NCBI RefSeq assembly: GCF_026870175.2
Contig: NZ_CP113977.2
Span: 3,100,001 to 3,164,000, forward strand
DNA length: 64,000 nucleotides
DNA from: Flavobacterium aestivum
GTDB taxonomy: Bacteria > Bacteroidota > Bacteroidia > Flavobacteriales > Flavobacteriaceae
Direction of reading: 5' to 3'
The notes under the pieces are model-generated. The model searched no databases. It saw nothing but the letters and a program-made list of their open reading frames with translations, and was not told the origin of the DNA. The translations under genes were made by a program, and so were the position numbers. Below, piece after piece: positions 22,033 to 45,642 of this stretch. How positions within the stretch are numbered: position 1 is the first letter of the stretch; each line of letters begins with the position of its first letter.

Positions 22033-22063
22033 ATGCAAAAAATTAATGACTTTTTAAAAAACA

Positions 22064-22081
22064 TACACAAAAACGTACACG
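22064..22081 (+). repeat. Candidate integrase arm-type site, left copy
   Basis: TACACAAAAACGTACACG matches TACACAAATCCGTACACG at 52591-52608 in 16 of 18 positions and in the same orientation. The copies lie 82 bp inside attL and 72 bp outside-in from attR. A conserved sequence near both ends of an element is expected for integrase arm binding sites. Confidence 0.55.
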
Positions 22082-22089
22082 GTTTAGAA

Positions 22090-25839: not shown

Positions 25840-26646
25840 TTAATCACAATTTCCTGAACTTAGTGGATTCGTTTTATATTGTGTGGCAGTAAGATTCGAA
25901 GTTGAGTTAAAATTTACTATGCCTCCATTGGTATAGTCCCTATATTCCTTAATTAATTGTTCTTGAAAATATAATTTAACTGTTAATTCAGAAACTTCTG
26001 TCTTACCAAATTTAGCAATTGTTTCATCCATAGCCAACTGAAGAACTCTTGCAGAAACTGTTGCCGCAACACCTGAAGTTACATCTCCATTGCCTTTGTT
26101 AAAATTTATTGGCATACCAAAACTTATAGGCTGGGGGTAGTTGATAATTTGTGTTATCTGAATATGGTTAGGTGGAGTTAATAAAACAACTTTAAAACTA
26201 ATATTTTTAATCAATGCTTCTTGCCAATTAGCACCTTTTTTTGCTGTAAAATTAAAACTTTCACAACTAGGAGGAGGAGAATCTGCTGGACTTGTTGTCG
26301 ATCCATCACCACCGTTACCACCAATTGAAGTATTTCCTCCTGTACTTATTCCTCCAGTTACTGGACCACGAGGCGTATAGACCACCGGAGTTCCAGTACT
26401 TGAAACCGTTATAATAACTGGTCTTAATGGAATTGGATTTCCGCCGCCGCCATCTGTATTGCAATCCCCATCTTGACAGGGAAGGACAGGCGGTGCTTTG
26501 CCAGTAACTTTATTAATCGAAACTGTTTTGGCTTCAACCATTTTAACATCTTGTTCCATCAATGCATCGTCTTTCTCACAACTTAATGCAATGAGAAGAA
26601 AACAGTATAGCATTACTTTTGCAATTCTTTGTAATTTGTTTTTCAT
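25840..26646 (-). CDS. Lipoprotein with Gly/Pro/Thr-rich linker, unknown function
   Basis: This 268-residue protein has a lipoprotein signal (FLLIALSCEKDD, lipobox Cys near residue 23). A low-complexity stretch rich in Gly, Pro and Thr follows (about 55-125, with CQDGDCNTDGGGGNPIP). The C-terminal globular domain (about 130-268) begins SCESFNFTAKKGANWQEA. The first Cys pair is probably disulfide-linked. It should be anchored in the outer membrane. The family is not named, and it is the first gene of a three-gene cargo operon within the mobile element. Confidence 0.65.
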   Translation of the reverse strand: MKNKLQRIAKVMLYCFLLIALSCEKDDALMEQDVKMVEAKTVSINKVTGKAPPVLPCQDGDCNTDGGGGNPIPLRPVIITVSSTGTPVVYTPRGPVTGGISTGGNTSIGGNGGDGSTTSPADSPPPSCESFNFTAKKGANWQEALIKNISFKVVLLTPPNHIQITQIINYPQPISFGMPINFNKGNGDVTSGVAATVSARVLQLAMDETIAKFGKTEVSELTVKLYFQEQLIKEYRDYTNGGIVNFNSTSNLTATQYKTNPLSSGNCD

Positions 26647-26840
26647 TATTTCTTTTTAGTGTTAATAAAGTATTTATAACGTAAAGTGTTTCTCGAGAAC
26701 GTTTTAGTTTTCACAAAGTAAGAATATTTTTATTTAAAAAAATAATTGAAAGTAATAATTGTTGTATTGTATTTTACAATCGACTTCTATTGTTGTTAAA
26801 AAGTAAGACTAATTTTTAATTTGATAAGAGGTTTATCAAC

Positions 26841-26868
26841 AAAAAAAAGCGGTACCAATTGCACCGCT
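26841..26868 (-). terminator. Terminator at the end of the late module
   Basis: On the minus strand AGCGGTGC, loop AATTG, GTACCGCT is followed by an eight-T run, 30 bp beyond the stop at 26898. It closes the long minus-strand transcription unit coming from 39.2 kb. Confidence 0.85.
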
Positions 26869-26897
26869 ATTCACACAATAAATAAAATGGCTTAATT

Positions 26898-27704
26898 TTA
26901 GAAAAACTTATTCCTCACTTCAATTTTAAGATTTAGACTAAGGCATTCTATTAAGAATCCTCCATCAACTGCTTTTAAAGTCGAAAAGTCAAAAGGAATA
27001 TAATTACCAATAGCAATACTTTGATTTGCCATTAAGTACACTTCATTTGTTCTCGTATCTTGGTAGATACGCAATAAATGATACCTACCACCCCAAAAAT
27101 TAAATGTTGATGTGATTTTTATGTACATGCCATTCATTTGGAAAGTATCAATAGATGGGATTAATCTATTTTCGGCACTATCAGTCATCATAGTACTTAA
27201 ACCGTTCTCATTGTCAAAATGATTGGGAGCCCAAAAATTAATTTGTGAAGTACTGGCAAGCTGAAAAACTGACTGGACAATATATTTTTTGGATTGTGTG
27301 TAAGATGTAAAACCGTAAACATTTCCTCTATACTGTGGACTCTCGTATATTTTAAAAAAAGGAGTTGTAGGCGGAAAATTAGTCACATGTACCTCTTGAG
27401 CTTGTCCTTGTCCGTCTGCATTATTCTCAAAGAAAAATTTTTCCGAAAGTTCCTTTAAAAAATCGTCAACGCTAGACGAATAAATTATAGGTTCACAAAC
27501 GGAACCGTCAATTTCGCGATAATCTAAAACAAAGGGACTCTTTTTAAACGAAGTTTCATTTTGTATTTTAAATTTATTGGTGTTTGATAAATCCTTAACC
27601 ACATTTTGGGCAGGATTAAAAGAAGTAATAATAGTGTTGTCCGCTATTTTTCGAAGCGATACGTTGCCGCTTGCTTCTTTTATGAATTTTACTATTGGAC
27701 TCAT
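26898..27704 (-). CDS. Hypothetical late-module protein, possible virion or receptor-binding protein
   Basis: This 268-residue protein has no signal or membrane segment. It is rich in beta-prone and aromatic stretches (for example FFKIYESPQYRGNVYGFTSY near 120, INFWAPNHF near 157, FNFWGGRYHLLRIYQD near 200). Such composition fits a fibre, spike or receptor-binding protein, but I do not recognise the family. It is the last gene of the late module, 4 bp after the lysine-rich protein, and followed by the terminator. Confidence 0.55.
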   Translation of the reverse strand: MSPIVKFIKEASGNVSLRKIADNTIITSFNPAQNVVKDLSNTNKFKIQNETSFKKSPFVLDYREIDGSVCEPIIYSSSVDDFLKELSEKFFFENNADGQGQAQEVHVTNFPPTTPFFKIYESPQYRGNVYGFTSYTQSKKYIVQSVFQLASTSQINFWAPNHFDNENGLSTMMTDSAENRLIPSIDTFQMNGMYIKITSTFNFWGGRYHLLRIYQDTRTNEVYLMANQSIAIGNYIPFDFSTLKAVDGGFLIECLSLNLKIEVRNKFF

Positions 27705-27708
27705 TTGC

Positions 27709-27975
27709 TTATTTTTTTACCGTTTTTTTCTTTTTGGTCGCTTTCTTTTTAACTACTTTCTTTTTGGTTGCTTTTTTAACGGGTTTCTTTTTGGCAACTT
27801 TCTTCTTAACACTTTTCTTCTTTACGGTTGGTTTTACAGTTACTTTTACAATTTTACCTCCTTTAAGATACTTAAATCCTTTTTTTAAAGTGCCGTCTGC
27901 TTTAAGCCCTGTACTTTTTAATACTCTGGAACATACCGTTTTTAATCCTCTTACTGATGTTTTTTTTACTGCCAT
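27709..27975 (-). CDS. Lysine-rich histone H1-like DNA-condensing protein
   Basis: The 88 residues split into a short ordered N-terminal part (GLKTVCSRVLKSTGLKADG) and a C-terminal tail of KKK, KPVKK and KKATKK repeats with Val, Thr and Ala, like bacterial histone H1-like proteins. In a viral late operon such a protein would neutralise or condense packaged DNA. It could instead be a general nucleoid protein. The tail gives a pI far above 10. It lies 4 bp upstream of the terminal late gene. Confidence 0.7.
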   Translation of the reverse strand: MAVKKTSVRGLKTVCSRVLKSTGLKADGTLKKGFKYLKGGKIVKVTVKPTVKKKSVKKKVAKKKPVKKATKKKVVKKKATKKKKTVKK

Positions 27976-28003
27976 GATTGATTTTTATTAATTTGATTTT
28001 TGA

Positions 28004-31000
28004 TTAATTTACCAGGAATGATAATTTCTTTTTCGCCTTTGGTTCTGACACCGTTTCGGCTTTGTCCTGTATTAGCTTTTTATAAAAAATGTTGAATTTC
28101 AAGCCGTCGAGCGGTTTGTTTTGATAGCGGTTTTTGTCGGCATAGATATAATTATCTCTATAGTCTGCCATTTTTTCGGTAAACAAAACAATGTCCGCAT
28201 CAAACTGACTTTTACTGCCTCCGCGCATTTTGCCATCTGTGGTTTGTTGAAAAATGACAATGAATAATTTACCGTTGTATTTTTTACGTAAATCTTTATC
28301 GACTTCAAACCCTTTATGCATTTCCTGCATTTTTGAGAAACTATCTATTACTACAATTTCGCTGTCCTGTATTAATTTCTCTAAGTCTGAAATACTTTTT
28401 ACTTCTGGAGCTACAATATTCTGCAATGCTTTTGCATTCAAATATTCATTGGCTTTGTCGTAATACAAGGTGCTTTCGGGATGCTCTTCAATACTGGCGT
28501 GTCCCACTTTGTAATTTTGAGCTAACGCATTCATAAACTGAAAGCACATTCTCGTTTTCATTGAACCCTGACCGCCTGTAAGCGAAATCACAATACTTTC
28601 TTTTTGCTTACGCTCTATTTGTCCTAGAAAATCCGCTATATCTTGATTCTCAATTTTGAAACAGTCAACATTAGTAGGTCTGTTAGCCATCTTGTAAGCA
28701 AGAGAATTTTTGTTTACATTTTTCTCTGGAGTACCCTTTGGGGTATACCCCAGTTGTTTATTTACTTCGTTTTTTGTAGCACCTTTTGGAGCGTTTAATC
28801 CTTTTACTTCAGTAATAGGTTCAGACTTTTCTTGATGCGTTCCTTTATTCTCTAAACTCGGTATAACCGCAACAAGTAACTTCCAATTGTGTTGTCCAAA
28901 AGTGTTTAATTGTCTTTGCCAAGCTCCTTCTTTCGGCGACCATTTAAAAGCCAATCCGCTACGTTTTAGAGCCGTTCTAATCTCTTCATTGGGTTTGTCC
29001 TCAAAAAACAACTGAAGACGGTTTATGTCATAATTCCAAACCGCTTTCCCGCCGTCAAAATCTTTTTCCTTATTGCCCTCTTCTTTTTTGACATTCAATT
29101 TTTTCTCCAGTTCAATTTGAGCTTTTAAATTACGGATACGAGCCAATGCATTCGTACTCACATAGCTTCCCAAAGTCGTAAATCCACTTTTATGGGCTTG
29201 GTTTATAAAATCTTCGGAAAACCCCATTTTTATAAGTTCTTCCTTTTTTTGGTCGTCCGTTATTTTTTTACGCATGATTTTATTAAAGTCAAGCGTTTTT
29301 TGATGCTGCTCTTCTTCTTTTTTTAATTTTATTTCGAGTTGTGAAAGAGCTGTTTGTGAACCTGTTTTTATGATTACAGGCTTTAATTCTTTTGCGAATA
29401 AATTTTGGTATTTTTTACCATATTCAACCAATGCGTTTAATCGGCTGTCTACAATAGCATTTTTTTTGCGCATACGAGCCACGGGGAAATTCGAACTACC
29501 CGCAATCATGGTAGAGAAAAGACCGTGTCGGCTTTTTAAATAGGCGAGAGTATGGGATAAATACCCTTCTTTAAATCGTAGAAAACGTTTTTCAAAAACA
29601 GAAAGCAAGTCGTTTTTCTCAGCAATTTTCATTTGTTGCTCCCAAACAGCATCCATAAATTGGACATAACTTTTTTGTTCGGATTCAGCCCTTTTTTCGG
29701 GACTGAAACTCGTACCCGTGTGTGCATGATACGCCGTGTTGTATGGAATATCCTTAATGGAGAACGGTTTTACAAAAACGCTTTTTTTCGACACAAATGC
29801 TTTCTTTTTTCCATAATTGGATGCTTTTTTATGTATTCGGACATGAGGTTCTGAGCCTTCAGTTTCATCCTCTTTTGCCTTTTCACGTCCTAGAATATGG
29901 TTGGTTCCTTTTTGTGCCTGAGCGCTAGCTTTGAGAAAGAAACGGTTATCATTGGTCAATTCATCCACTAGTTTATCATTCCAACTTTTCAAATACTTCG
30001 CAGAATTTTCTTTGGTGTGAAACAAAATACCCGATTCCCCACAAAGGAAAACCGCACCCAGTTCTGCCACCAATTCCTCAAAAGCATACGCTTTTTTATC
30101 TTCCTTAGACCCGTCTCTTTTTCGGGTGTCATTCCCTCTGTCTAAACGTTTGGAATGTCCGGTACTATGAACCGCTTCATGGAAATAAGCTGAATAATAA
30201 AATTCTTCACTCGAGAAAGCTGTAATACTCGGCATATTTAAACGGTCTTCCTTCGGATAATACGCCGCAGCATCACCCACAAAAGTATATTTTGGTGGGT
30301 TTTGATAGCCGTCAATAATAGCCTGCGCACTCTCGATGGGGTCAGTCTCTTTGGTTGGCGTGTGGTCTTCTTTGAATTTCAAGCCTGTACAATCGTCAGC
30401 ACGATAAACGTTGTAGTATTTGATGATTGGAATTTTGTAACTGTTTTTGTCCAAATCTGTTTTGCCCAGATTCTCGCTCTTTACGAATTCAGTCCATTTT
30501 GCCCTGTCAGTCGTTTTAAAAGCCAATCCCTTGTGATTGTCGTAACTAAAAATAAGAGTGTAATAAATAACGCGTCTGGGTTTGGCACCTTCGTTTAGGA
30601 TGGTATTAGCTTTTTTTATTTGGTTGAAAGTTAGATAATAGGGCTGCTTGAATTGTATAGGCACTAAATACGGCTCACCGTTTTCATCGTATTTTACGTC
30701 AAAATTGAGAATGTAATTGGCACCCGTATACTCTTTCCCCGAAACATAATTTTTGGCACCTCCTAAAGCTCCCGAACCTTTCCACTCTTTTTGCCAAGGC
30801 AAATGCCCCACGGTATCGATGGTGTTGATTATCATTTTTGTAATATAATCATAGATTTCATTAGGTGAAACGGCTTTACCCAGTCCCTCACTATCATCCT
30901 CCGAATGATACTCAAGAGTAGGCAATAACATATCGGCTTCGACTCCGTTTAGTCCGTAAGGCTCAACAGGGCTTTTTATTTCAATAGCAAAAGTATTACC

Positions 31001-31141
31001 CGCAAAAGCATGAAGTACTTTAGTTATTCTTTTCTCTATTACAGTATGCTGCTCTTTTTTGGCTATTTCCTGTAGTTTTTCAAGGTATTTCCTTTCTACT
31101 ATAGTTCCGTTTAAACTATTGAATTCTTGTGCTAAGGTCAT
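28004..31141 (-). CDS. Polyvalent protein: ArdC-like domain, zincin protease, RecA-like ATPase
   Basis: This 1045-residue multidomain protein begins with an ArdC-type single-stranded-DNA-binding region (about 88-245, with HLPWQKEW and ANYILNFD). It continues into a zincin metallopeptidase with HEAVH at 321-325, STGHSKRLDRG and a downstream FEELVAELG. A middle region (about 740-770) carries the KPNEEIRTALK...WSPKEGAWQRQL motif. The C-terminal domain is RecA-like: Walker A GGQGSMKT near 857, Walker B EIVVIDSF, and FIVIFQQTTDGKMRGGS. ArdC/zincin fusions are the polyvalent proteins of phages and conjugative elements, thought to be delivered with the DNA to block host defences. The ATPase may serve replication or packaging. 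Confidence 0.8.
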   Translation of the reverse strand: MTLAQEFNSLNGTIVERKYLEKLQEIAKKEQHTVIEKRITKVLHAFAGNTFAIEIKSPVEPYGLNGVEADMLLPTLEYHSEDDSEGLGKAVSPNEIYDYITKMIINTIDTVGHLPWQKEWKGSGALGGAKNYVSGKEYTGANYILNFDVKYDENGEPYLVPIQFKQPYYLTFNQIKKANTILNEGAKPRRVIYYTLIFSYDNHKGLAFKTTDRAKWTEFVKSENLGKTDLDKNSYKIPIIKYYNVYRADDCTGLKFKEDHTPTKETDPIESAQAIIDGYQNPPKYTFVGDAAAYYPKEDRLNMPSITAFSSEEFYYSAYFHEAVHSTGHSKRLDRGNDTRKRDGSKEDKKAYAFEELVAELGAVFLCGESGILFHTKENSAKYLKSWNDKLVDELTNDNRFFLKASAQAQKGTNHILGREKAKEDETEGSEPHVRIHKKASNYGKKKAFVSKKSVFVKPFSIKDIPYNTAYHAHTGTSFSPEKRAESEQKSYVQFMDAVWEQQMKIAEKNDLLSVFEKRFLRFKEGYLSHTLAYLKSRHGLFSTMIAGSSNFPVARMRKKNAIVDSRLNALVEYGKKYQNLFAKELKPVIIKTGSQTALSQLEIKLKKEEEQHQKTLDFNKIMRKKITDDQKKEELIKMGFSEDFINQAHKSGFTTLGSYVSTNALARIRNLKAQIELEKKLNVKKEEGNKEKDFDGGKAVWNYDINRLQLFFEDKPNEEIRTALKRSGLAFKWSPKEGAWQRQLNTFGQHNWKLLVAVIPSLENKGTHQEKSEPITEVKGLNAPKGATKNEVNKQLGYTPKGTPEKNVNKNSLAYKMANRPTNVDCFKIENQDIADFLGQIERKQKESIVISLTGGQGSMKTRMCFQFMNALAQNYKVGHASIEEHPESTLYYDKANEYLNAKALQNIVAPEVKSISDLEKLIQDSEIVVIDSFSKMQEMHKGFEVDKDLRKKYNGKLFIVIFQQTTDGKMRGGSKSQFDADIVLFTEKMADYRDNYIYADKNRYQNKPLDGLKFNIFYKKLIQDKAETVSEPKAKKKLSFLVN

Positions 31142-31142
31142 A

Positions 31143-31625
31143 TTAAGAGAGTTTGTAATCGATTCCTAAAACACTAATAACTGCTACAATCCTAACATCA
31201 TCCACCTTTAAACCATCGTTATGGAGTATGGTAAGGGCGGTACTGATTGCAGTTTTTAAATCCAATGCAATGGGAATGTCTTTTAGGGTTATACTAGAAT
31301 TGGCGGGAATAGTGATGGCGTTTATGTTTAATTCGGAAGAGCCAAAAAGAACGTTCTTTTTATCATAAAACAAGATTCTTTTGAGCGTTACCGCTACAAT
31401 ATTGGCATTGAAATTTACAGGCGTTGGATTGATTACTTTTAAATCGAGTTTGAAAGTAACATAGGGCATTCCGTCATTCCATTTGGCATTCAAATTCTTG
31501 AAAGCAACGGGCAACACCTTTACGTTTTGAAGCTGTTCAACGATTTTTTTTATTTTATCGCCCAGTAAGAAATAACCAAAAACACCCACTATACCAACTG
31601 TGATAACTACATTTCTGAGACTCAT
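31143..31625 (-). CDS. Membrane-anchored LEA14/WHy-like protein
   Basis: This 160-residue protein has one N-terminal membrane helix (VVITVGIVGVFGYFLLG, residues 5-21), then a beta-sandwich-like domain. KVINPTPVNFNANIVAVTL and ITIPANSSITLKDIPI match the pattern of LEA type 2/WHy domains. It lies 1 bp before the polyvalent gene and just after the candidate spanin. A role as a virion membrane protein is inferred from the topology shared by many neighbours. Confidence 0.6.
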   Translation of the reverse strand: MSLRNVVITVGIVGVFGYFLLGDKIKKIVEQLQNVKVLPVAFKNLNAKWNDGMPYVTFKLDLKVINPTPVNFNANIVAVTLKRILFYDKKNVLFGSSELNINAITIPANSSITLKDIPIALDLKTAISTALTILHNDGLKVDDVRIVAVISVLGIDYKLS

Positions 31626-31646
31626 TTTGCTACTTATTTACAGGGG

Positions 31647-32201
31647 TTAAAACCAAATTCGAGCGATTCGATACCCCACATAAACAAGAAAACCAAACCC
31701 AATAAAGGCTAAAATTTTAATCCAAAGGGGAATGTATTTAACGGGTACTTTTACGAATTGTTTGTCTACTTTGACAACTGTTTTTTCTTTATTGGTGGCT
31801 ACATTTTCACTTTGGGTTTGCGCTATTTTCTGCCAGATTACAAGCTCTTTTTTTAATTCATTGTAATGAATTCCTGCTTCATTATCGCCTGATTTTTTAC
31901 GGCTGTTCAGTTGTTTTAACAACTGGTCAACGGTGGCTTGGGTTATGCTGTCACATTCGGGCTTTGTTGTTTTTACTTTGGCAATTTGAATTATCAAACT
32001 ATCGAGAATCGCTTGGTTTACCTGTGTGTTTTTTACGCTGTCCGTGTGGTGTTCAATAACCCGTTCAATGGTGTGCGTGTTCCCAATAGGCTTTGTCGCA
32101 CAGCTATTGCATACTACCCCAAAAACAAAAAGGGCTAAAAGTAAGTAAAGGATTTGCAAAAGGGTTTTGAGTGTATCTTGATATGGAGTGTTTTTTGACA
32201 T
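31647..32201 (-). CDS. Candidate unimolecular spanin
   Basis: The 184-residue protein has an N-terminal hydrophobic segment ending in VVCNSCATK, which can be read as a lipobox. A periplasmic helical middle (about 38-150) follows, then a C-terminal membrane helix (LWIKILAFIGFGFLVYVGY). A lipoprotein N-terminus plus a C-terminal membrane helix is the layout of u-spanins such as T1 gp11, which link and fuse inner and outer membranes during lysis. It comes directly after the holin-like gene (2 bp), completing endolysin, holin and spanin. The lipobox is imperfect, so the call is inference from topology and position. Confidence 0.55.
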   Translation of the reverse strand: MSKNTPYQDTLKTLLQILYLLLALFVFGVVCNSCATKPIGNTHTIERVIEHHTDSVKNTQVNQAILDSLIIQIAKVKTTKPECDSITQATVDQLLKQLNSRKKSGDNEAGIHYNELKKELVIWQKIAQTQSENVATNKEKTVVKVDKQFVKVPVKYIPLWIKILAFIGFGFLVYVGYRIARIWF

Positions 32202-32203
32202 GA

Positions 32204-32542
32204 TTATTTAAATTTAGTTTTTAGCAGCACTTTTAGAACATCAAAAAAGCTGCTTATTAGTTCTTCAACTTCAGTATGTATAAGAGTGGACAAGGAACCA
32301 CCCCAAGCGCAGATGACATAGGTGACGACTTTGTTTAGGTTTAGGTATTGGTCACAAATCACATAAACTGAAAACGCGACAAAAACACTGACTATAGCTT
32401 CAGCAAGAAACCAACTTAGCGTAGGTTTCTTGCCTCTGCTGATAGCGATATAAATTTTGGTAAAAATCCCCGCCAGTAACAGCAGTATAAACAAAAAGTG
32501 CTCTTGAAGATATTTGAAACTATTGATTAAAAGGTTTTTCAT
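32204..32542 (-). CDS. Holin-like membrane protein
   Basis: The 112 residues show two strong membrane helices (HFLFILLLLAGIFTKIYIAI and AEAIVSVFVAFSVYVI), a weaker third one (VVTYVICAWGGSLSTLI), and a Lys-rich C-terminus, as in class I or II-type holins. It lies 2 bp after the endolysin gene and 2 bp before the candidate spanin. Its job would be to open the inner membrane at a set time. Confidence 0.7.
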   Translation of the reverse strand: MKNLLINSFKYLQEHFLFILLLLAGIFTKIYIAISRGKKPTLSWFLAEAIVSVFVAFSVYVICDQYLNLNKVVTYVICAWGGSLSTLIHTEVEELISSFFDVLKVLLKTKFK

Positions 32543-32544
32543 TT

Positions 32545-33144
32545 TTATTTGAATACTTTAGAATTAAATGTGAGCCAATCCCAAGCGTAAGCATTAGCAG
32601 ACTTCCAATTAGGTAATTGAACTTTTTTTTTTAATACTTCGAGAGTTACATTTTGTGCCTTATAATAGGCTACGAGTTTTATACGCTCTTCCAGTCCGTT
32701 TGTACCTCCGTTAATCCCTTTGGTGATACTGGTAACGTTGTCGAGATCGGCATATTTGTTTAGATTTCCCCAAGAGCTGCCATAAACCCAATACCAACAG
32801 GCTATATCTATTGAGATGGCTAAATCAGATGCCAAACTGGGGTTGTTTACAATATCAATTCCTGAATAGTTTTTGTATCGTTGGTAATTCCCTCGACCCG
32901 TTAATTGGATGAGTCCACGACCTCTAAATCGATAGCCGTCACCGACTTTGGTATTCCCTAAGTATTTATGGTTTTGGTATTTCTTTTGGGCGTTGTTGTA
33001 CGATATTGCTTCTACTGAAGCGGTGAAATTTCGACTTTCGTGAGCCAATTGCCCAAGAAAATGGGCAATTCTTAAGGGAGTAGTGATACCGTATTTTACA
33101 AAGGCATTATAAAACAAGGTTTTATTTGATAGTACAAAACTCAT
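32545..33144 (-). CDS. GH19 (chitinase-like) endolysin
   Basis: The 199-residue protein matches the glycoside hydrolase 19 lysozyme group used by phages. The catalytic glutamate is in LAHESRNF (E36), the substrate-cleft signature YRFRGRGLIQLTGRGNY near 75, and SITKGINGGTNGLEER near 145. No signal peptide is present, which fits release through a holin. Its start overlaps the stop of the upstream 33-aa gene (TAATG), indicating translational coupling. It is the first gene of the lysis cassette. Confidence 0.9.
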   Translation of the reverse strand: MSFVLSNKTLFYNAFVKYGITTPLRIAHFLGQLAHESRNFTASVEAISYNNAQKKYQNHKYLGNTKVGDGYRFRGRGLIQLTGRGNYQRYKNYSGIDIVNNPSLASDLAISIDIACWYWVYGSSWGNLNKYADLDNVTSITKGINGGTNGLEERIKLVAYYKAQNVTLEVLKKKVQLPNWKSANAYAWDWLTFNSKVFK

Positions 33145-33245
33145 TATAGGATTACTTTTTGGGGTTCAACTTTTGGTTTTTTAAATAATAGATACAATCC
33201 CATTACGGCAATTGCACCAATAACTACTTTGGTTTGTGTGGTCAT
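33144..33245 (-). CDS. Tiny single-span membrane protein, 33 aa
   Basis: MTTQTKVVIGAIAVMGLYLL followed by FKKPKVEPQKVIL: one membrane helix with a basic tail. The stop codon overlaps the endolysin start (TAATG) and the ATG lies 2 bp after the stop of the peptidoglycan-binding gene. The tight spacing in a single-span-rich operon supports a real gene. It may be a minor virion membrane protein or a lysis modulator. Confidence 0.65.
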   Translation of the reverse strand: MTTQTKVVIGAIAVMGLYLLFKKPKVEPQKVIL

Positions 33246-33247
33246 AG

Positions 33248-33898
33248 TTAGTACGGTTTTACGGCATCAGCTTTTACAAAAGCAAAGCCATCAAATATTT
33301 TGACTAAATAACTTCCCGTAGCGTTCACATCTACAAAAGTTCCAGCCGAATCTCCGTATTTTAAATCGCCACCGTTAAAGAACTTCTCTCCAGTACCAAA
33401 ATATTTTCCGTTGGCTCCTTTTTTTGCAATAAACAAAGAGGTGTCTTTTATAGCCTGTAATTTTTGACCTACTTTGGGTAAGACCTTTCGAGCGGCTTTT
33501 ACAATGGGCTTTGCAAGGATTTTAGATTTTGTTTTCACGTTTGCTTTTTTAGCAAAAGCATTGATACTTATCTTCGTAACTCCTTTTTGTGCCAGTAAAG
33601 CTGCAAGGGTTACACTTCCAAAATCACCATCAATGGGTACGCCTAACAAGCGCTGCAATTCTCTAACTTCAAGACCTTTGCTGCCTTTGGTTAATAGCAG
33701 GTTTCGGTTTAGGGAAGCACCGGTTTGCGGATTAGGGTTTGTGGTTAGTGGGCTTGGTTCTGCGTACTCCGGTACATTGTCCGTCGTGCTGCTTAGAGCT
33801 TCATTCTGCTTTTTTTTCCAGTACAAAAACCCCAAAGCTCCCACACCAATAACGGTAACCCCAATTAATACTTTATTTTCATCACTCACTTTCATCAT
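33248..33898 (-). CDS. Membrane-anchored peptidoglycan-binding protein
   Basis: From the ATG at 33898 (or 33895) the protein has about 216 residues. There is an N-terminal membrane helix (VLIGVTVIGVGALGFLYW), a Pro/Asn-rich linker, and a peptidoglycan_binding_1-type domain (TKGSKGLEVRELQRLLGVPIDGDFGSVT, about 69-96). A Lys-rich middle and a C-terminal SH3-like beta region (SYLVKIFDGFAFVKADAV) follow. It could hold the viral membrane to the cell wall during entry or exit. A longer frame to 33976 overlaps the upstream gene and is rejected. Confidence 0.7.
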   Translation of the reverse strand: MMKVSDENKVLIGVTVIGVGALGFLYWKKKQNEALSSTTDNVPEYAEPSPLTTNPNPQTGASLNRNLLLTKGSKGLEVRELQRLLGVPIDGDFGSVTLAALLAQKGVTKISINAFAKKANVKTKSKILAKPIVKAARKVLPKVGQKLQAIKDTSLFIAKKGANGKYFGTGEKFFNGGDLKYGDSAGTFVDVNATGSYLVKIFDGFAFVKADAVKPY

Positions 33899-33906
33899 CT
33901 TTGTTT

Positions 33907-34332
33907 TTATAAATGCATTGGAAATTTCTTTCTCAATAAATTGTAATCCGCTGCGCTCAGTTCTTCTTTTAACCACGTTTTTAAAGAGAGATTCGCACCG
34001 CCTATGGTATTGTATCCCAATAACCGATTGTAGTTTCGAAGACCGAACGATTTGCTGATTAAGCCAAACTGTTTTTGTGTAACTCCTGTCAATTCCTCAA
34101 TTATCCTTTGTTCATCTGTGCCGTTGTAAATGTTCATGGCATTATACAAAGCGGTTGCTTTTTGGCTTGGGGAAAAAACAGGAGCTTGGTTTGTATCGCC
34201 TTCGTCTATGTATTTTTTCTTTCCTCCAAAAAGTGTTTTTCCGTTTTTATTGGTTTTGGTCGCCAAATAAATTCCCGCTCCCAATACCAATACTGAAACA
34301 CTTACGAGTATGGCTTTTTTTGTGTTTGTCAT
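33907..34332 (-). CDS. Membrane protein with annexin-like repeat (copy 1)
   Basis: The 141-residue protein has an N-terminal membrane helix (AILVSVSVLVLGAGIYLA). After a linker, residues about 57-140 resemble an annexin repeat: KATALYNAMNIYNGTDEQRIIEELTG, then Q..LISKSFG, ending SLKTWLKEELSAADYNLLRK. The GTDE motif, the spaced hydrophobics and the ELS end fit the annexin consensus. The next gene upstream encodes a paralogue of the same layout and the two overlap by 1 bp. Annexin homology is by eye and may be convergent. Confidence 0.6.
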   Translation of the reverse strand: MTNTKKAILVSVSVLVLGAGIYLATKTNKNGKTLFGGKKKYIDEGDTNQAPVFSPSQKATALYNAMNIYNGTDEQRIIEELTGVTQKQFGLISKSFGLRNYNRLLGYNTIGGANLSLKTWLKEELSAADYNLLRKKFPMHL

Positions 34333-34766
34333 TAGAAAAATCCTTTTATTAGAAATCGAAGTTTGGCTATTTCCGCCTCATTAAATTGATCTTGAAGCCA
34401 TTCTACCAAAGTCAGTTTTGAAAGCGTTGAACTTCTGCGCTCACCAAATGCATTAATGATTTTTATAAAGGCATTATGATTGAGACCTGATAAATTGTTT
34501 TCTACGGTAGGGTAGTTAGCACCAAACCCTAATAAAGCGGTGTAAATGGCTTCGGCTCTGGCTTTGGCTTGGGTATCGCTAATATTACTGGGCTCGTATC
34601 TTGTGTCTGTAGGAACGGGCTTAAAACCCATGAATAGTTTGTAATAAGCTATCCCAAAGGCAGTGCCAATTAAGGCAACCTTCAAAACCGTAAAGCCTAA
34701 TTTTTGCCCCTCTGAACTCGTTAATGCTTTAGTTATTGCAGGATTTCTTAAACCTTTCTTATTCAT
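34332..34766 (-). CDS. Membrane protein with annexin-like repeat (copy 2)
   Basis: This 144-residue paralogue of the downstream gene has a membrane helix at about 25-45 (LKVALIGTAFGIAYYKLFMG). The C-terminal repeat-like domain is KARAEAIYTALLGFGANYPTVENNL...FIKIINAFG..., ending LTLVEWLQDQFNEAEIAKLRFLI. It lacks the GTDE motif, replaced by ANYPTVEN. Its stop overlaps the next start. Both are probably structural membrane proteins of the particle. Confidence 0.55.
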   Translation of the reverse strand: MNKKGLRNPAITKALTSSEGQKLGFTVLKVALIGTAFGIAYYKLFMGFKPVPTDTRYEPSNISDTQAKARAEAIYTALLGFGANYPTVENNLSGLNHNAFIKIINAFGERRSSTLSKLTLVEWLQDQFNEAEIAKLRFLIKGFF

Positions 34767-34788
34767 CTGATTACTGTTTTCTGATTTT

Positions 34789-34992
34789 TTACGCGCTCAA
34801 AAAACCTTTTATCATAGGGAAATTGTTTTTTATGTGCGTGATTGCCATTGGACTTTTGGATAATTCAACCAATTTGGTAAGTACCTCTACATCCAGTTTT
34901 GATAATTGGCTTAAAGCATTTGCTTTCGATTTGGTTTCAAATGGATTGGTTCCTGTTACTTTAATTTGTGTGCTGTTATTTATGCCTGCCAT
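34789..34992 (-). CDS. Small hypothetical late protein, 67 aa
   Basis: MAGINNSTQIKVTGTNPF then an amphipathic helical region (LSQLSKLDVEVLTKLVELSKSP) and a C-terminal MIKGFLSA. There is no membrane helix. It overlaps the upstream 254-aa gene by 13 bp in another frame, as in a compact viral operon. The function is unknown. Confidence 0.55.
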   Translation of the reverse strand: MAGINNSTQIKVTGTNPFETKSKANALSQLSKLDVEVLTKLVELSKSPMAITHIKNNFPMIKGFLSA

Positions 34993-35744
34993 AATTGATG
35001 TTTTTGTAATAGTTCTGCTAGTTCGTTAGTAAATTCGGGGTTGGTATTCATTGCGCTGTTGATGCTCTGTAGTACGTTTACAGTTGAATCATCAAGGTTT
35101 TGCAAAGCTTTTGCAAGATTTTGTTTTGCAGGGGTTGAATAATTCTCAGTAGGTGAGGCTAATCCTGTAACTGGTGGAGCTCCGTTGAAGGTTGCCAAGA
35201 TGGTGGGCAAATGTTGTATGGCTCCCAACAACATTTCTTGTGTCCCGTTGCTTCTTGCCGTATCATATTTCGTTGCCAAACGCTCTTCCTTGAGTTCTTC
35301 TATTAGCTTTTTGTTTTCTTTCTCAGATGCTTTTAAAATCTCGTTTTCGGCATGCAATCGTTGGGCATCGCCTTTAGCCACAAACAAGTTAATCATGTCG
35401 AGTGACCCCAAGCCAAACGAGTTGGGAAATAGTTCAGCTTTATGAACGGTAACAGGCTGCTTAACGGGTTCAACCGATTGGGTGTCTTTCGAAAAATTCA
35501 CATCAAAACTCTTACCGTCCATTTTATAGGTACTACCATTTTTGCGCTTTAAAGTCAACGTTAATCTTCTGTGTCCATCGGCGAAAAGAGTTTCAAAAAA
35601 TTCTTCAGCACTACCATAGTCGGCTATGATTTCGGCATGGGGTTTATTCCTAAACACAAAAGCAGCAGTATCCAAATCCAAAACAGAAATAGCGGAATAG
35701 CTGTCGGTGTTGAGTTTGTCTATAAGTGTATCTAATTCTTGCAT
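34980..35744 (-). CDS. Late-module protein with coiled coil, 254 aa
   Basis: The N-terminal 90 residues look alpha/beta (SAISVLDLDTAAFVF, LTLTLKRKNGSTYKMDG). A strong coiled coil (about 132-165, AENEILKASEKENKKLIEELKEE) follows, then a Pro/Ala-rich and helical C-terminus. The family is not recognised. It overlaps the 104-aa gene at one end and the 67-aa gene at the other. It could be a scaffold, spike or assembly protein. Confidence 0.6.
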   Translation of the reverse strand: MQELDTLIDKLNTDSYSAISVLDLDTAAFVFRNKPHAEIIADYGSAEEFFETLFADGHRRLTLTLKRKNGSTYKMDGKSFDVNFSKDTQSVEPVKQPVTVHKAELFPNSFGLGSLDMINLFVAKGDAQRLHAENEILKASEKENKKLIEELKEERLATKYDTARSNGTQEMLLGAIQHLPTILATFNGAPPVTGLASPTENYSTPAKQNLAKALQNLDDSTVNVLQSINSAMNTNPEFTNELAELLQKHQLWQA

Positions 35745-36046
35745 GTGATTAATTTTCTATAAATAATGTCCAACTCTTTTTTGTGCCAACTGAATTTTTT
35801 AAACACTCCTTCGATTCCGTCGTCTGTTTTGCTAAATTGAATGTCCAAGATCACTTTTGTAATAGTGCCGTCTGGGACGGCAAGGGTAAAGTGTTCGTTA
35901 GGATGAAGCTCAAGCTCATTGATAAAGACACTAACCAAACCATTGTTTTTCACTTGTAAAGTGGTTACGTTTTCGATTGGAATTTCCCTGTCGGATTTCA
36001 CTTTTAAAAAGACTAAGCCTGTCTCTATTAATGAAATATCATTCAT
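35732..36046 (-). CDS. Small beta-rich late protein, 104 aa, candidate minor capsid protein
   Basis: The pattern of short beta strands (VTTLQVKNNGLVSVFINELEL, EHFTLAVPDGTITKVILDIQF) suggests a single beta sandwich with no membrane helix. It follows two other small beta-rich proteins in the same operon. In tail-less viruses small beta-barrels make the coat and the vertices. Assignment to a vertex or spike is positional inference. Confidence 0.5.
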   Translation of the reverse strand: MNDISLIETGLVFLKVKSDREIPIENVTTLQVKNNGLVSVFINELELHPNEHFTLAVPDGTITKVILDIQFSKTDDGIEGVFKKFSWHKKELDIIYRKLITCKN

Positions 36047-36068
36047 AGGTCTGTTTTTACGGTTTATT

Positions 36069-36434
36069 TTAAGCGCAGCCTTCTCTGATTTTGTACATCA
36101 AAATCAAATGAAAATAGGTGTCTTTTGATACTTCAGTTTGCGTCTTTACCTTGAAACTAAAGGTTTTCGATTCGGTTTCAAAAAGCAAAGGCTTGTAACT
36201 GTCGTCGAATCCCGAACCTTCCCTGCGTTTCCAATGGTTGATGTGGCATGGTTTTGAAAATGCCACGCCGCTATCGTCATAGATACCATAAACCGCTAGA
36301 TTATTTATATCGTCGTGGTTGGTGTGTAATTCAGCCCCTAGAATAAATCCATTGTCTAAGGCGGTGCTAAACGACATTTCCATCTCGTTTTTGGGAATAA
36401 CTAAATTGATTACTTTCTCTCGTATTGCTGCCAT
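36069..36434 (-). CDS. Small beta-rich late protein, candidate capsid protein
   Basis: From the ATG at 36434 the protein has 121 residues, all soluble and beta-prone: VINLVIPKNEMEMSFSTAL at the start and FSFKVKTQTEVSKDTYFHLI at the end. A frame opening at 36485 would run backwards through the hairpin at 36454-36479, so the later start is preferred. The size and topology would suit a single-jelly-roll capsid subunit beside the 182-aa protein, but no sequence family confirms this. Confidence 0.55.
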   Translation of the reverse strand: MAAIREKVINLVIPKNEMEMSFSTALDNGFILGAELHTNHDDINNLAVYGIYDDSGVAFSKPCHINHWKRREGSGFDDSYKPLLFETESKTFSFKVKTQTEVSKDTYFHLILMYKIREGCA

Positions 36435-36453
36435 AATTTTTAATTTTAAGAAA

Positions 36454-36479
36454 AGCCGTAAGCCTTTACGTTTACGGCT
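36454..36479 (-). terminator. Hairpin after the candidate major capsid gene
   Basis: AGCCGTAA / TTACGGCT with a 10-nt loop, then TTTC on the minus strand, 30 bp past the stop of the 182-aa gene. A partial terminator here would raise the amount of the upstream mRNA over the downstream part, as is common after major capsid genes. Confidence 0.65.
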
Positions 36480-36508
36480 CTTCATGTGCCTATTTTAAAA
36501 CTCTTTCC

Positions 36509-37057
36509 TTATCGTTTGGCTTGGTGAGACCTGAATTCAAAACGAACGTTATACTCTTTGTCAGTTGGAACCGATACGTTCTTTGGGTATTCGATTTCAA
36601 TCTCGAATTCTAAATTGCTTCGGATTAGGGGAGAAGTAGACAAGCTTCTAAAAGCTACAAACGGGTCAATCATTAAATCCGTAATCGGCATATCGACCAA
36701 AACGGTACCCGCTTGTTTGATTCTAAATTCTGCCGCTAAAAACTCAGCAGGCATAAGGTTTTTTATGGTACCCCAGTTTTGGGCTTTTAGGTTGGCATCC
36801 TGTCCCCATAAAACACGGATGCCGTCTATAACATAATCACGTCCTGCATTCAATTTATTTCCGTCAATGTTAGTGATTCCCACCTCTCTACGGGTGTTTA
36901 CATCAACAAGATTTACAATACCCGCCTGACCTTTTACTGCTACATTCAAGTATAACGTTTTGTCTGTCAATTCTACCTGACCAATTTTAGGGATTCCACC
37001 TTTTCCTTTTGCCTTAATAGTTGCTACCGCTGAGGCTAATTCTGTTCTTCTGCTCAT
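36509..37057 (-). CDS. Candidate major capsid protein, 182 aa
   Basis: This soluble protein has a basic N-terminal arm (MSRRTELASAVATIKAKGKG), then alternating beta strands (VELTDKTLYLNVAV, REVGITNIDGNKL, YVIDGIRVLWGQ, EFLAAEFRIKQAG, LEFEIEIEYPK, EYNVRFEFRSHQAKR). The all-beta layout with a basic arm, a dedicated hairpin right after the gene, and a place among membrane and vertex-like proteins make it the best major-capsid candidate. No known capsid family could be recognised by eye, so this is inference. Confidence 0.5.
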   Translation of the reverse strand: MSRRTELASAVATIKAKGKGGIPKIGQVELTDKTLYLNVAVKGQAGIVNLVDVNTRREVGITNIDGNKLNAGRDYVIDGIRVLWGQDANLKAQNWGTIKNLMPAEFLAAEFRIKQAGTVLVDMPITDLMIDPFVAFRSLSTSPLIRSNLEFEIEIEYPKNVSVPTDKEYNVRFEFRSHQAKR

Positions 37058-37107
37058 TTGATTAATTGATTATTTTTTGATTGATGATTGTTTGATTTTT
37101 TTTGCTG

Positions 37108-37716
37108 TTAATAAATCTCGTTGTATAGATCTTCCTCGGCTCCATGAAGTCCATCTTCACCGTACACGTATTCTTCCGCTCCTTGAAGTCCATTCTGATA
37201 CAATTCGTCTTCCAATGCTCCGTGAAGTCCGTCCTGCACTTGGAAAACGTTTCCGTATTCATCCGTGAAGGTGCCGTTTAGCCCGTTCTCTTGAAAAATG
37301 TTTCCCGCTTCATCGATATAGGTTCCGTTCAATCCGTTTTCATCGTATTGGTAAACATGACCGTCACCGCCCATAAACGCACCGTTTAAACCATCTTCAT
37401 AAGGGCAGGCAAGTCCAACAGCCCCTTTCATAAACTGGGTGGCTTTACCGTCTCCTATAAGGCGGGCACTTAGATTTTTTGTGGCAATCTTTTTGATACT
37501 TATAGCCACTTGGGTAAGTGTGCTACCCACCAATGCTCCTTTGAGCAAATTGTCTTTTGTACTGGCTCCTTTTACTCTAGTGGCTCCAAAAGCGGAAGCC
37601 CCTGCAACTGCCAAATTGATAATTGGACTTTCTGAGTAGGGGAGTAATGCAGTCAATCCACTAGATACTAGACCGCCACATACACCACCTCCAATAATTA
37701 CTACCTCTTTATTCAT
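37108..37716 (-). CDS. Late protein with hydrophobic half and [D/N]GL[N/H/Q]G repeats
   Basis: Residues 1-110 are rich in Gly, Ala and hydrophobics (VVIIGGGVCGGLVSSGLTALL, then ASAFGATRVKG), compatible with membrane-inserting segments. Residues about 108-202 hold six units starting DGLNGA, NGLNGT, NGLNGT, DGLHGA, NGLQGA and DGLHGA, the first three spaced by about 17-20 residues and then tighter, each followed by acidic and aromatic residues. I know no named repeat of this form. It lies between the candidate capsid gene and a proline-rich membrane protein, so it is probably structural. Confidence 0.6.
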   Translation of the reverse strand: MNKEVVIIGGGVCGGLVSSGLTALLPYSESPIINLAVAGASAFGATRVKGASTKDNLLKGALVGSTLTQVAISIKKIATKNLSARLIGDGKATQFMKGAVGLACPYEDGLNGAFMGGDGHVYQYDENGLNGTYIDEAGNIFQENGLNGTFTDEYGNVFQVQDGLHGALEDELYQNGLQGAEEYVYGEDGLHGAEEDLYNEIY

Positions 37717-37732
37717 TTTTTTGTTGATTTAA

Positions 37733-38482
37733 TTACTTACTTTTTTTTGTTGCCATGTAAATTCCACCTACCACTACAACCGCTCCAATGACATAAAGCA
37801 TAGTGTTGTTGCTTTTTCCCGCAACGGGAGCTGTCATTTTTTCGGTAACGGCTTCTACCTGTTTTACGGGAGTTAATTCGCCTACAGGCTCATTCACAGC
37901 TTCTGATGCGTTGGTATTGCTATCAGTAGTTGTAATTTCCTTAGCTGTAGTTTCAGAAAAACCTCTAGGCTCTATTTCGCTTACCCCTTCAATTTTAGCT
38001 CTTGCTTGGTTTACAACTGCTCTGCCTACTTTTGATTGCGCTAGTTTGACCCCTTTTTTTACGATTTTGGACTTAGCCACTTTCATAACCGTCTTACCCA
38101 CTTTGGAATCCAATACCTTCATTGCCGTGCCTCCTCCTGGTATAATTCCCGCGACTAGCGGACCTGCAAACTTGGCTACCTTTATGGTGTTTTTTAAGTT
38201 TACTTTTCGAACTAGTTTTTTGATGCCTTTCTTTGGCTTTTTTGATCTTCCTAATCCTTGGTCTTCGTTGTCTTCAAAGGAATCGGATTCACTGTAACTG
38301 GGTTCGGCATCCTCGTAGGTTACTGGCGGCGGAGGCGGAGGCGGAGGCGGTGGCGGTTTTGAATGTTTTTTCAAAATCAAAGCATGTGGGGCAACTGCCG
38401 CTTTTACGGTATTTTTTAAATTGACGTTTCGCATCCACTTGGGCTTACCTAACCCGTTTTCATCTGCATTAATTAGTATCAT
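37733..38482 (-). CDS. Late membrane protein with internal duplication and polyproline run
   Basis: This 249-residue protein contains two related units, GLGKPKWMRNVNLKNTVK near residue 11 and GLGRSKKPKKG...RKVNLKNTIKVAK near 75. They are separated by an 11-proline run and an acidic stretch. A Gly/Ala-rich hydrophobic segment follows (about 100-120) and a C-terminal membrane helix (TMLYVIGAVVVVGGIYMA). The layout suggests a virion membrane protein with an extended spacer. The starting NADENGLG text resembles the GLNG units of the next gene. Confidence 0.6.
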   Translation of the reverse strand: MILINADENGLGKPKWMRNVNLKNTVKAAVAPHALILKKHSKPPPPPPPPPPPVTYEDAEPSYSESDSFEDNEDQGLGRSKKPKKGIKKLVRKVNLKNTIKVAKFAGPLVAGIIPGGGTAMKVLDSKVGKTVMKVAKSKIVKKGVKLAQSKVGRAVVNQARAKIEGVSEIEPRGFSETTAKEITTTDSNTNASEAVNEPVGELTPVKQVEAVTEKMTAPVAGKSNNTMLYVIGAVVVVGGIYMATKKSK

Positions 38483-38493
38483 ACTTCATTGTT

Positions 38494-39201
38494 TTAATTT
38501 TTCTTCCCAAAAACAAACGCTCCTCCTATAATTCCGCCTATGATGGCATAAATCCCTAGGTTTGATTCTTTCTTTGCAAAGGTTTTGGTTTTCTTTGCAA
38601 AGGCTTTGCGGGCGGGTCTTGGGGCGTTTAGCCCATAATGCGGTAAATTAACTTCAGTATCTTCTGCCATTACATATATTGGTTCTCTGTTATTACTCGT
38701 TGTTGCATCTATGACTAAATAGCCGTCTTTTATGTCTGCTGTTGCTTGGTTTAAAGGCACTATCACATACACATGGGTAAATAGCTCAGGTTTCCAACTC
38801 GGTTGCCTTATTTGACGGATATAGTGTTTAATTCCTAAATTAACCAGTATGCAACTCGCGAAAACGGAATACGATTTGCAATCCATCCCTATTGCACGAT
38901 GTTCAAATGCATAGGAGGGACTTTGTAAATCTTGATTTAATTTATCGGCTTTATACTGAATGTGATTGTATAAAAACCAATAAATACGATCACAGGTCTC
39001 TTTCAATGTATCCCTTTGCAAAAGCTTTGCAATTTTCTTTGTTTGATAGTTGTGCTTTGCTATCCATTTCTGCATTAATTGAACTGTTACAAAAGTATTG
39101 CCGTTGCCTAGGTATCTTCTTTGAGAGCTCACCTTGGGGAACAACGGCTCGTACTCTTGACCGCCTAATAAAGTTCTGTGTAACAAGCTATCTGCATTCA
39201 T
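38494..39201 (-). CDS. Transglutaminase-like cysteine protein with C-terminal membrane helix
   Basis: This 235-residue protein holds a transglutaminase/protease-like core: Cys in GMDCKSYSVFASCIL near residue 112, His in LFTHVYVIVPL near 148, Asp in YLVIDATTSN near 170. A Lys-rich linker (FAKKTKTFAKK) and a C-terminal membrane helix (GIYAIIGGIIGGAFVFG) follow. It is the first gene of the late module. It may process or crosslink the other structural proteins, whose Lys- and Gln/Asn-rich repeats would be natural substrates. The activity is inferred from the triad. Confidence 0.7.
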   Translation of the reverse strand: MNADSLLHRTLLGGQEYEPLFPKVSSQRRYLGNGNTFVTVQLMQKWIAKHNYQTKKIAKLLQRDTLKETCDRIYWFLYNHIQYKADKLNQDLQSPSYAFEHRAIGMDCKSYSVFASCILVNLGIKHYIRQIRQPSWKPELFTHVYVIVPLNQATADIKDGYLVIDATTSNNREPIYVMAEDTEVNLPHYGLNAPRPARKAFAKKTKTFAKKESNLGIYAIIGGIIGGAFVFGKKN

Positions 39202-39327
39202 TTTCGTTTCGGTCTTGTATAGAATATTAGGCTCATCGTTTGATTGTTGAGTGCAAATATTAGACAGGAATTTATAGCCATTAAGGGTAATGCGGACTTT
39301 TGCGGACTTTACTTGAGTTTGAGTTTC

Positions 39328-39410
39328 TTTTGCAAAGGCTTTGCAAAAAAAGGTGTAGTTTTTTACAAACCCTTGTAATTCTGAAACCTTGTAAAAAACT
39401 TTTTTTACAA
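39328..39410. promoter_or_regulatory. Inverted repeats in the divergent control region
   Basis: The 337-bp interval 39202-39538 separates the late module (minus) from the transglutaminase-like cargo operon (plus). It has TTTTGCAAAGGCTTTGCAAA symmetry at 39328-39348 and AGTTTTTTACAA (39357-39368) facing TTGTAAAAAACT (39389-39400), then TTTTTTTACAA again. A near -7 box for the late module (TAATATTTG, minus) lies at 39253-39261. These are candidate operators for late-gene control. Confidence 0.45.
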
Positions 39411-39538
39411 TACGGCGTATATTAAGAAAAAGCTTTAGATTTGTTTAAAGATTAATCTTATAAATTAAAAATAACGGTTTTTCAACTATAGAGATAAAAT
39501 AACGCAATCGTTACTATATTAAATTTGGATACAATTAA

Positions 39539-40903: not shown

Positions 40904-40906
40904 ATA

Positions 40907-41950: not shown

Positions 41951-41956
41951 TTTTTT

Positions 41957-43054: not shown

Positions 43055-43073
43055 CATTAAAACTTTTAATACT

Positions 43074-43802: not shown

Positions 43803-43820
43803 TTTATAGAAAGCAAAAAA

Positions 43821-44495: not shown

Positions 44496-44545
44496 ATATA
44501 GGAACTTAAAATAGCGCTAATATAGTACCGAAAAAGCTAAACAAG

Positions 44546-44689: not shown

Positions 44690-44711
44690 TACTTAAAAAG
44701 ATAAAGTAAAA

Positions 44712-45614: not shown

Positions 45615-45642
45615 TAGGGGAGTAAAGGTCTTTTCTTTGTTT

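Follow-up and report, generated by a model that had tools for sequence, protein, structure and literature searches.

What kind of element carries a 12-kb series of same-strand genes that includes lysis genes and many small membrane proteins, and nothing recognisable from a tailed phage? The question is raised by positions 26898-39201 of a 64,000-nucleotide stretch of the Flavobacterium aestivum genome (contig NZ_CP113977.2, 3,100,001 to 3,164,000; hereafter, the window), in which an initial annotation had proposed a candidate module of a tail-less, membrane-containing temperate virus. We conclude that the region is very probably the late module of a temperate, tail-less virus that is distantly related to SSIP-1, a salt-water phage of Salisaeta, and not part of a tailed phage, a satellite or a conjugative element. 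The element itself extends beyond 26898-39201: it runs from 21937 to 52725 and comprises 30.7 kb.

An integrated element bounded by tRNA repeats

The element is bounded by two identical 45-bp repeats (21937-21981 and 52681-52725, plus strand) consisting of the 3' end of a tRNA-Val (tac) gene plus one base. The tRNA gene itself, which is the integration target, was located by ARAGORN at 21905-21980 (plus strand). A 40-base core of the repeat occurs in four exact copies genome-wide, two of which bound each of two elements. The second of these (copy 2) is 29.1 kb long, lies at approximately C1:158651-187840 at another tRNA-Val gene, and shares 86% DNA identity with the window over 26526-39470; the integrase and regulator region also match. 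Downstream of the first repeat lies a gene for a 426-aa tyrosine integrase (22033-23313, plus strand; PF00589, E 3.7e-7; 84% identical in copy 2), which together with the repeats at the tRNA-Val 3' end bears out the temperate character originally proposed. At the other end of the element, a helix-turn-helix (HTH) repressor-like protein of 144 aa (51992-52426, plus strand; PF01381, E 2e-11) is encoded divergently from the early genes. The repressor of copy 2 is 94% identical to it, so that two proviruses of seemingly equal immunity coexist in one genome.

The conserved early region encodes, on the minus strand, a 582-aa replication-like protein (49651-51399) and a 75-aa protein (49380-49607), as well as proteins of 106 aa (49003-49323; 94% identical in copy 2) and 80 aa (51517-51759; 68% identical). 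Pfam scans covered all open reading frames (ORFs) of the element except three small ones, and PHROGs were run on the 18 late proteins described below. The 582-aa protein has no Pfam match, and its match to phrog_270 (replication initiation) is weak (E 0.005).

A conserved late operon without recognisable tailed-phage genes

In the ORF listing of the window, the series at 26898-39201 comprises 18 accepted, tightly spaced ORFs on the minus strand, the strand of every late gene mentioned in this text. As first described, it includes lysis genes, namely those for a GH19 endolysin of 199 aa (32545-33144; PF00182, E 1.8e-10; phrog_181, E 2.3e-50) and a holin-like protein of 112 aa (32204-32542; phrog_785, E 4.5e-5; phrog_6384, E 0.0017). 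Pfam and PHROG searches with the 18 late proteins gave no match to a terminase, portal, HK97-capsid, tail-tube or tape-measure family, in keeping with the earlier claim, and the late series thus lacks recognisable hallmark genes of Caudoviricetes. The endolysin has a further PHROG match, to phrog_3201 (E 4e-11), which carries the label "tail fiber"; this match is confined to the GH19 region. Several soluble late proteins match no family in either library. Hydropathy analysis identified seven single-span proteins (235, 249, 202, 144, 141, 216, and 160 aa) and two two-span proteins (112 and 184 aa), consistent with the original count of at least seven.

The conserved series is more than a chance run of ORFs, because the 16 late genes compared at 28004-39201 give dN/dS values of 0.027-0.22 against copy 2 (the 88-aa gene was left out of the comparison) and gene order is kept in many genomes, as described below. 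The lowest value among the genes compared is that of the 182-aa protein, our candidate major capsid protein, and the 268-aa gene at 26898, which adjoins these genes, gave 0.165. Values were higher for a 98-aa antisense ORF (0.28) and the 118-aa (0.44) and 80-aa (0.49) genes, and highest for another 268-aa ORF at 25840 (0.63) and a 44-aa ORF (1.6). These data also bear on the idea that the element is a decayed or domesticated provirus that no longer forms particles. One relative of the 182-aa protein in another genome (G886) does contain an internal stop, but the presence in one genome of two bounded copies with open frames and such low dN/dS ratios makes decay unlikely here.

A candidate single jelly-roll capsid protein

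The 182-aa protein (36509-37057) has no match in the Pfam or PHROG libraries, and its profile finds no PDB sequence at E 10. Structure prediction, which the initial annotation had suggested, gave a jelly-roll-like model with one barrel and moderate scores. Its clear best structural match is the capsid protein of SPV1 (Portogloboviridae), and the model thus shows the VP4-like single jelly roll that is a trait of that family; the first Foldseek match is a chain of a tailed-phage capsid. The late operon therefore encodes a protein whose model bears a convincing resemblance to single jelly-roll capsid proteins of membrane viruses.

The adjacent 121-aa protein (36069-36434) is the version that starts at a downstream ATG of a 138-aa ORF, and copy 2 likewise encodes 121 aa. 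Its AlphaFold2 model (pLDDT 78) is a beta sandwich, as had been surmised, but the matches include both jelly-roll capsid proteins and non-viral beta sandwiches, with PHM and GOLD domains scoring like the viral matches, and point to no clear family. We consider it a candidate second capsid or penton protein. Searches of BFVD returned 17 and 11 matches at E ≤0.001 to mixed beta-rich viral proteins and were not used as evidence. Using tblastn, we found no match at E 1 in 50,697 phage records for the 182-aa protein, a distant homologue, the transglutaminase-like protein described below, or two proteins of one of the circular contigs considered later; a single-sequence scan of viral contigs was also negative.

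Together with the lack of tailed-phage structural families, the two models support the tail-less and virion-forming parts of the original proposal. Its membrane-containing part is supported indirectly, by the single-span proteins and the link to SSIP-1, which suggest that the particles probably have an inner membrane.

Conservation of the module in other genomes

Matches to the 182-aa protein were found in 13 of 150 relatives; a 14-row profile found 8 of 395 genomes across the phylum, and a 23-row profile found 15 of 397 genomes of the family, including the G886 match (F. aestivum itself is counted each time). We assembled a set of 23 loci, the window and 22 others, picked by the 182-aa protein. 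The transglutaminase-like, 182-aa, and 144/141-aa families are present in all 23. Each of the 254-, 67-, and 160-aa families was recovered from 22 loci, each of the 202- and 121-aa families from 19, and the 104-aa family from 17. Scripted gene calls were simple longest-ORF choices; in the clustering of this set, cluster c1 also took in short Lys-rich proteins, and one very divergent locus (L027) has few clusters in common with the others.

An independent set was obtained by scanning genome contigs with an alignment of the transglutaminase-like protein, which gave 92 relatives, of which 80 were kept. The 182-aa family occurs in 69 of these 80 loci, and the order transglutaminase, 202, 182, 254, 67, 144/141 is kept in 66 when other genes are ignored. 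Eleven of the 14 exceptions have less than 2.2 kb of DNA past the transglutaminase gene, one lacks the 67-aa gene, and one has the 254-aa gene in two pieces; in the last (L161), the 8.9 kb that follow the transglutaminase gene contain no member of the families. The named hosts are mostly Flavobacteriaceae and include Flavobacterium, Tenacibaculum, Aquimarina, Mesonia, and others. Judged by these sequence matches, the group is widespread. With 10-kb flanks included, 36 of the 80 loci match the 582-aa profile and three match that of the integrase. Two endolysin-type families alternate, GH19 in 27 loci and one that, from its motif, we take to be muramidase-like in 23, never both.

A tRNA gene stands beside the module in nine of the 23 loci, and in eight of the nine the tRNA end is repeated directly, as repeats of 44-86 bases that lie 23.3-30.7 kb apart. 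The ninth (G061) has no direct repeat and was left out of the comparison of bounded elements. No tRNA was present in the stretch examined in the other 14 loci, and element ends were sought in the nine. The 582- and 75-aa early genes are common to all eight bounded elements.

The 182-aa family is duplicated in one related contig (L080/L251, 2715-4186), in which two adjacent members of 243 and 218 aa are 32% identical. This is the only such case among 95 loci and represents a possible capsid-gene duplication. It also bears on a variant of our interpretation, in which a tail-less virus has its shell built by some other protein and the 182-aa protein serves as a minor or spike component. The moderate scores of the 182-aa model and the resemblance of the 121-aa model to jelly-roll proteins would allow this; the tandem duplication, the 69 of 80 loci chosen by a different gene, and the lowest dN/dS among the genes compared argue against it, and we regard it as improbable.

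Relationship to SSIP-1 and FLiP

The initial annotation could not match this gene set to SSIP-1 or FLiP, and considered that it may be a separate lineage. Profiles correct that view: two proteins have firm links to SSIP-1 and others weak ones, and one membrane-protein family is linked to FLiP. Family profiles were compared with all ORFs of SSIP-1, P23-77, and FLiP, and the comparison of 25 profiles was rerun with SH1 and reversed decoys added. The family of the 235-aa transglutaminase-like protein (38494-39201; PF04473, E 2e-4), which has a C-terminal membrane span and in which Cys108, His143, and Asp165 are invariant among 19 sequences, matches SSIP-1 gp34 at E 1.9e-12 (rerun, 5.1e-12; hhalign, 97%). 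A separate transglutaminase profile from the circular contigs matches gp34 at E 7.8e-9, and gp34, like the window protein, matches Pfam DUF553 (PF04473; E 3.3e-5). The second firm link is that of a 1045-aa protein (28004-31141) with ArdC-N (PF08401), zincin (PF18818), and C-terminal P-loop ATPase domains, whose family matches the SSIP-1 ATPase gp40 through the ATPase domain (E 4.5e-8; rerun, 1.2e-7; hhalign, 96%). The 1045-aa protein also matches 60 phage records, 39 of 40 among the matches listed via its ArdC-zincin part, and these say little about the virus.

Three further links are weak. The family of the 202-aa membrane protein (37108-37716) matches gp44 at E 0.0033 (rerun, 0.0092; reversed gp44, 0.24), with nothing above 20% in hhalign. 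The 182-aa family has gp46 and gp45 as its top two hits in both runs (E 0.04 and 0.088; rerun, 0.11 and 0.24), while a wider profile and the 23-row profile find gp46 only (E 0.12 and 0.42). When 18 SSIP-1 proteins were aligned with 16 profiles in hhalign, the only values above 20% were those of gp34, gp40, gp45 (68%), and gp46 (35%) and a trivial 16-column match to gp50. A scan with gp46 found only SSIP-1 itself. All five proteins (gp34, gp40, gp44, gp45, and gp46) are annotated as structural in SSIP-1, and the order gp34, gp44, gp45/46 agrees with that of the module, the membrane-type gp44 and tandem gp45/gp46 following gp34 as the 202- and 182-aa genes follow the transglutaminase gene.

Two points slightly lower our confidence in the overall reading. 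The best decoy over the 25 profiles reached E 0.032, so the gp45 and gp46 values are no better than decoys, and the ATPase match is to a broad superfamily whose gene stands at a different position: in SSIP-1 the ATPase has a gene of its own, placed between gp34 and gp44, whereas that of the window forms the end of the ArdC-zincin protein after the lysis genes. SSIP-1 is also larger (43.8 kb), circular, and has two tandem capsid-like genes where the window element has one, and most other genes have no match, although SSIP-1 too has an annotated integrase and regulator. Its host, Salisaeta, is now placed in Rhodothermota, a phylum beside Bacteroidota. On balance, for the two solid links, the proteins are clearly related.

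The family of two tandem paralogous single-span proteins of 144 aa (34332-34766) and 141 aa (33907-34332) matches a FLiP structural protein (L256, 4746-5321) at E 2.8e-6 (rerun, 7.7e-6). A gene of this type is thus common to a double jelly-roll ssDNA phage and the window group. Other low-scoring profile matches include those to SH1 VP6 (E 0.00089) and the SSIP-1 anti-repressor (0.016).

The relationship to SSIP-1 also bears on whether the element could be a phage satellite of the PICI type, dependent for packaging on the capsid of a tailed helper phage, with the 182-aa protein serving in decoration or interference. A size of 23-31 kb and tRNA integration could fit a satellite, one HK97-type capsid gene lies at another place in the host genome (C1:2942465), and a tailed-phage capsid chain was the first Foldseek match noted above. 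However, the element carries a lysis cassette of its own, no terminase or head family was found in its long, conserved late operon, and two of its proteins are related to those of SSIP-1, which is described as an autonomous virus. In addition, six other carrier genomes (G004, G009, G013, G016, G024, and G033) gave no match to the PF05065 capsid model, which misses other HK97 families. A satellite therefore appears very unlikely. Least credible of all is a membrane-bound secretion, conjugation or tailocin-like system: the many single-span proteins and the ArdC-type protein (such proteins are common on conjugative elements) might suggest one, but the element encodes an endolysin and a holin, the best fold match of the 182-aa model is a capsid protein, and no relaxase, VirB4/TraD-type ATPase, sheath or tube family was found in the Pfam scans of all but three small ORFs of the element or in the PHROG scans of the 18 late proteins.

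Comparison with other membrane-containing viruses

According to two reviews, SSIP-1 is a membrane-containing virus with two capsid proteins of the vertical single-barrel type (PMC6356626, PMC4958249), an assignment that carries a question mark in PMC6260650. In SPV1, an internal membrane is combined with two single jelly-roll proteins (VP4 in hexamers, VP10 in pentamers) and a circular dsDNA genome of ~20 kb, and a packaging ATPase is not among its listed functions (PMC8459092). It is likened to the window element by predicted fold only, and differs in its archaeal host (Saccharolobus) and in chronic infection without observed lysis; the element described here is integrated in a Flavobacterium genome. 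Helvetiavirae (SH1, HHIV-2, HCIV-1, and P23-77) are characterised by a pair of major capsid proteins with one barrel each and by an FtsK/HerA-like packaging ATPase (PMC5332951). Neither was found with confidence in the window element, which has one member of the 182-aa family and the 121-aa beta sandwich without a clear family; Pfam scans of all but three small ORFs of the element detected no FtsK/HerA-type packaging ATPase, only a RecA/KaiC-like domain.

Finnlakeviridae and PhiCjT23-like prophages are also tail-less membrane viruses of Flavobacterium, and include the FLiP relative of the 144/141-aa family. As described in PMC9719478, they have ssDNA genomes of 6-9 kb and a double jelly-roll capsid protein, and the prophages are integrated at dif sites. 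The window group differs in its genome length (23-31 kb; 30.7 kb here), tyrosine integrase, tRNA sites, and one-barrel 182-aa model. The groups mined in 2018 (Odin, PM2, Bam35-Toil, FLiP, and others) are likewise uncultured and tail-less, with proviruses, but are defined by double jelly-roll capsid proteins (PMC5894146). The element is placed in no ICTV family, because the host differs from that of Portogloboviridae and the genome from that of Finnlakeviridae. A literature search, in a library that lacked most subscription papers, returned no description of this group; PMC12324425 concerns different 4.6-kb elements, PMC9719478 prophages of another kind (6-8 kb), and PMC8776804 a single non-tailed flavophage with an ssDNA genome of 6.6 kb.

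Circular contigs with related proteins

Scanning viral contigs with the transglutaminase family gave 15 loci, one of them a contig of 12,654 bases whose terminal repeat measures 121 bases. A further scan with the family of a 224-aa protein from this contig gave 159 relatives, of which 80 were kept and 54 whole contigs were examined. Terminal direct repeats of 99-127 bases are present in 23 of the 54, with unit lengths of 11.4-13.6 kb, which suggests that these contigs are circles. By hmmsearch, the transglutaminase and 104-aa families occur in all 23, the 160-aa family in five and the 144/141-aa family in four; none of the 23 has a match to the 182-aa, ATPase, integrase, or 582-aa family. Profile-profile comparison (families cut to at most 70 sequences) gave 100% for the transglutaminase, 94.8% for the 104-aa family (with a 92-aa protein of the contigs), 94% for the 160-aa, 93% for the 144/141-aa, 88% for the ATPase, and 63% for the 182-aa family. 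Five of 12 circular-contig families had no partner, among them 135- and 251-aa families placed where the 121- and 254-aa genes stand, and a sixth had only a 6-column match. The contigs look like a related, non-integrating branch. They form a common environmental type, of which the two proteins tried had no match in the phage collection; L082, L089, and relatives encode a phage lysozyme (PF00959), an AAA_25 ATPase, and, by eye, a long fibre-like protein.

We tentatively suggest, at somewhat less than even probability, that the window elements, the circular genomes, and SSIP-1 all belong to a single deep lineage of membrane viruses of bacteria with upright single jelly-roll capsid proteins. Nearly all the members identified would then keep one such gene, like SPV1, and SSIP-1 and L080/L251 would show its duplication within bacteria.

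Other genes of the element

The series ends with a 268-aa protein of unassigned role (26898-27704; 83% identical in copy 2), preceded by an 88-aa protein (27709-27975) with 37 Lys or Arg residues and one Asp or Glu; the DNA-condensing role first attributed to the latter is plausible from this composition. Between the ATPase and holin genes lie those for the single-span 160-aa protein (31143-31625) and a two-span 184-aa protein (31647-32201), which is spanin-like by its position in the gene order. The single-span 216-aa protein (33248-33898; 242 aa from an upstream GTG) may have a peptidoglycan-binding-like part, given a weak match to PF09374 only (E 0.064). Upstream of the 144/141-aa pair are the conserved 67-aa (34789-34992) and soluble 254-aa (34980-35744) proteins and the 104-aa protein (35732-36046), a probable minor virion protein. 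A 249-aa protein with a C-terminal membrane span (37733-38482) is encoded between the 202-aa and transglutaminase genes. Near the integrase gene lie genes for a 118-aa protein (23491-23847, minus strand; 74% identical in copy 2) and a 141-aa HTH regulator (24139-24564, plus strand; PF01381, E 6e-13; 80% identical).

Between the late and early regions, 39244-48972 is variable, and a 44-aa ORF provides its only protein match in copy 2; since the ORFs at 39539-48972 have no match there, we regard this stretch as cargo. On the plus strand (39539-43054) it encodes two transglutaminase-like proteins of 454 and 347 aa (Transglut_core2, E 0.017 and 1.3e-4) and a 365-aa protein with a C-terminal Tox-URI2-like domain (PF15653, E 1.3e-7), likely a toxin of bacterial competition. 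On the minus strand (45643-46956), a metallo-beta-lactamase-fold protein partially matches the PDC-M48B (E 4e-12) and LmuA (E 2e-8) defence models and may represent defence cargo of the provirus.

Proposed life cycle and significance

In the life cycle that we propose, the integrase would insert and excise the genome at tRNA-Val, and the HTH repressor would hold the early promoter. On induction, the 582-aa protein would start replication of the circularised genome, and the late operon would then produce a shell of upright 182-aa jelly-roll capsomers, with the 121-aa protein as a second or penton protein, overlying a host-derived membrane that bears the single-span proteins. The transglutaminase-like protein and the ATPase would be virion components, after the annotation of SSIP-1 gp34 and gp40, and the ATPase perhaps serves in packaging. 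Finally, the endolysin, holin, and spanin-like protein would lyse the cell. In this scheme, particle formation, the particle membrane, and DNA packaging by the ATPase are inferred.

If this interpretation is correct, SSIP-1 would cease to be a near-orphan and would join a common group of which cultured lysogens exist; these would offer strains for studying one-barrel capsids, internal membranes, and an unfamiliar ATPase. SPV1 has been suggested, in PMC8812541, to resemble the state before the duplication that led to viruses with two capsid proteins. Whether double barrels then arose by a further step, as an older idea holds, is disputed (PMC8812541, PMC9719478); the group described here would bear on the first proposed step, in which one single-barrel capsid gene became two.

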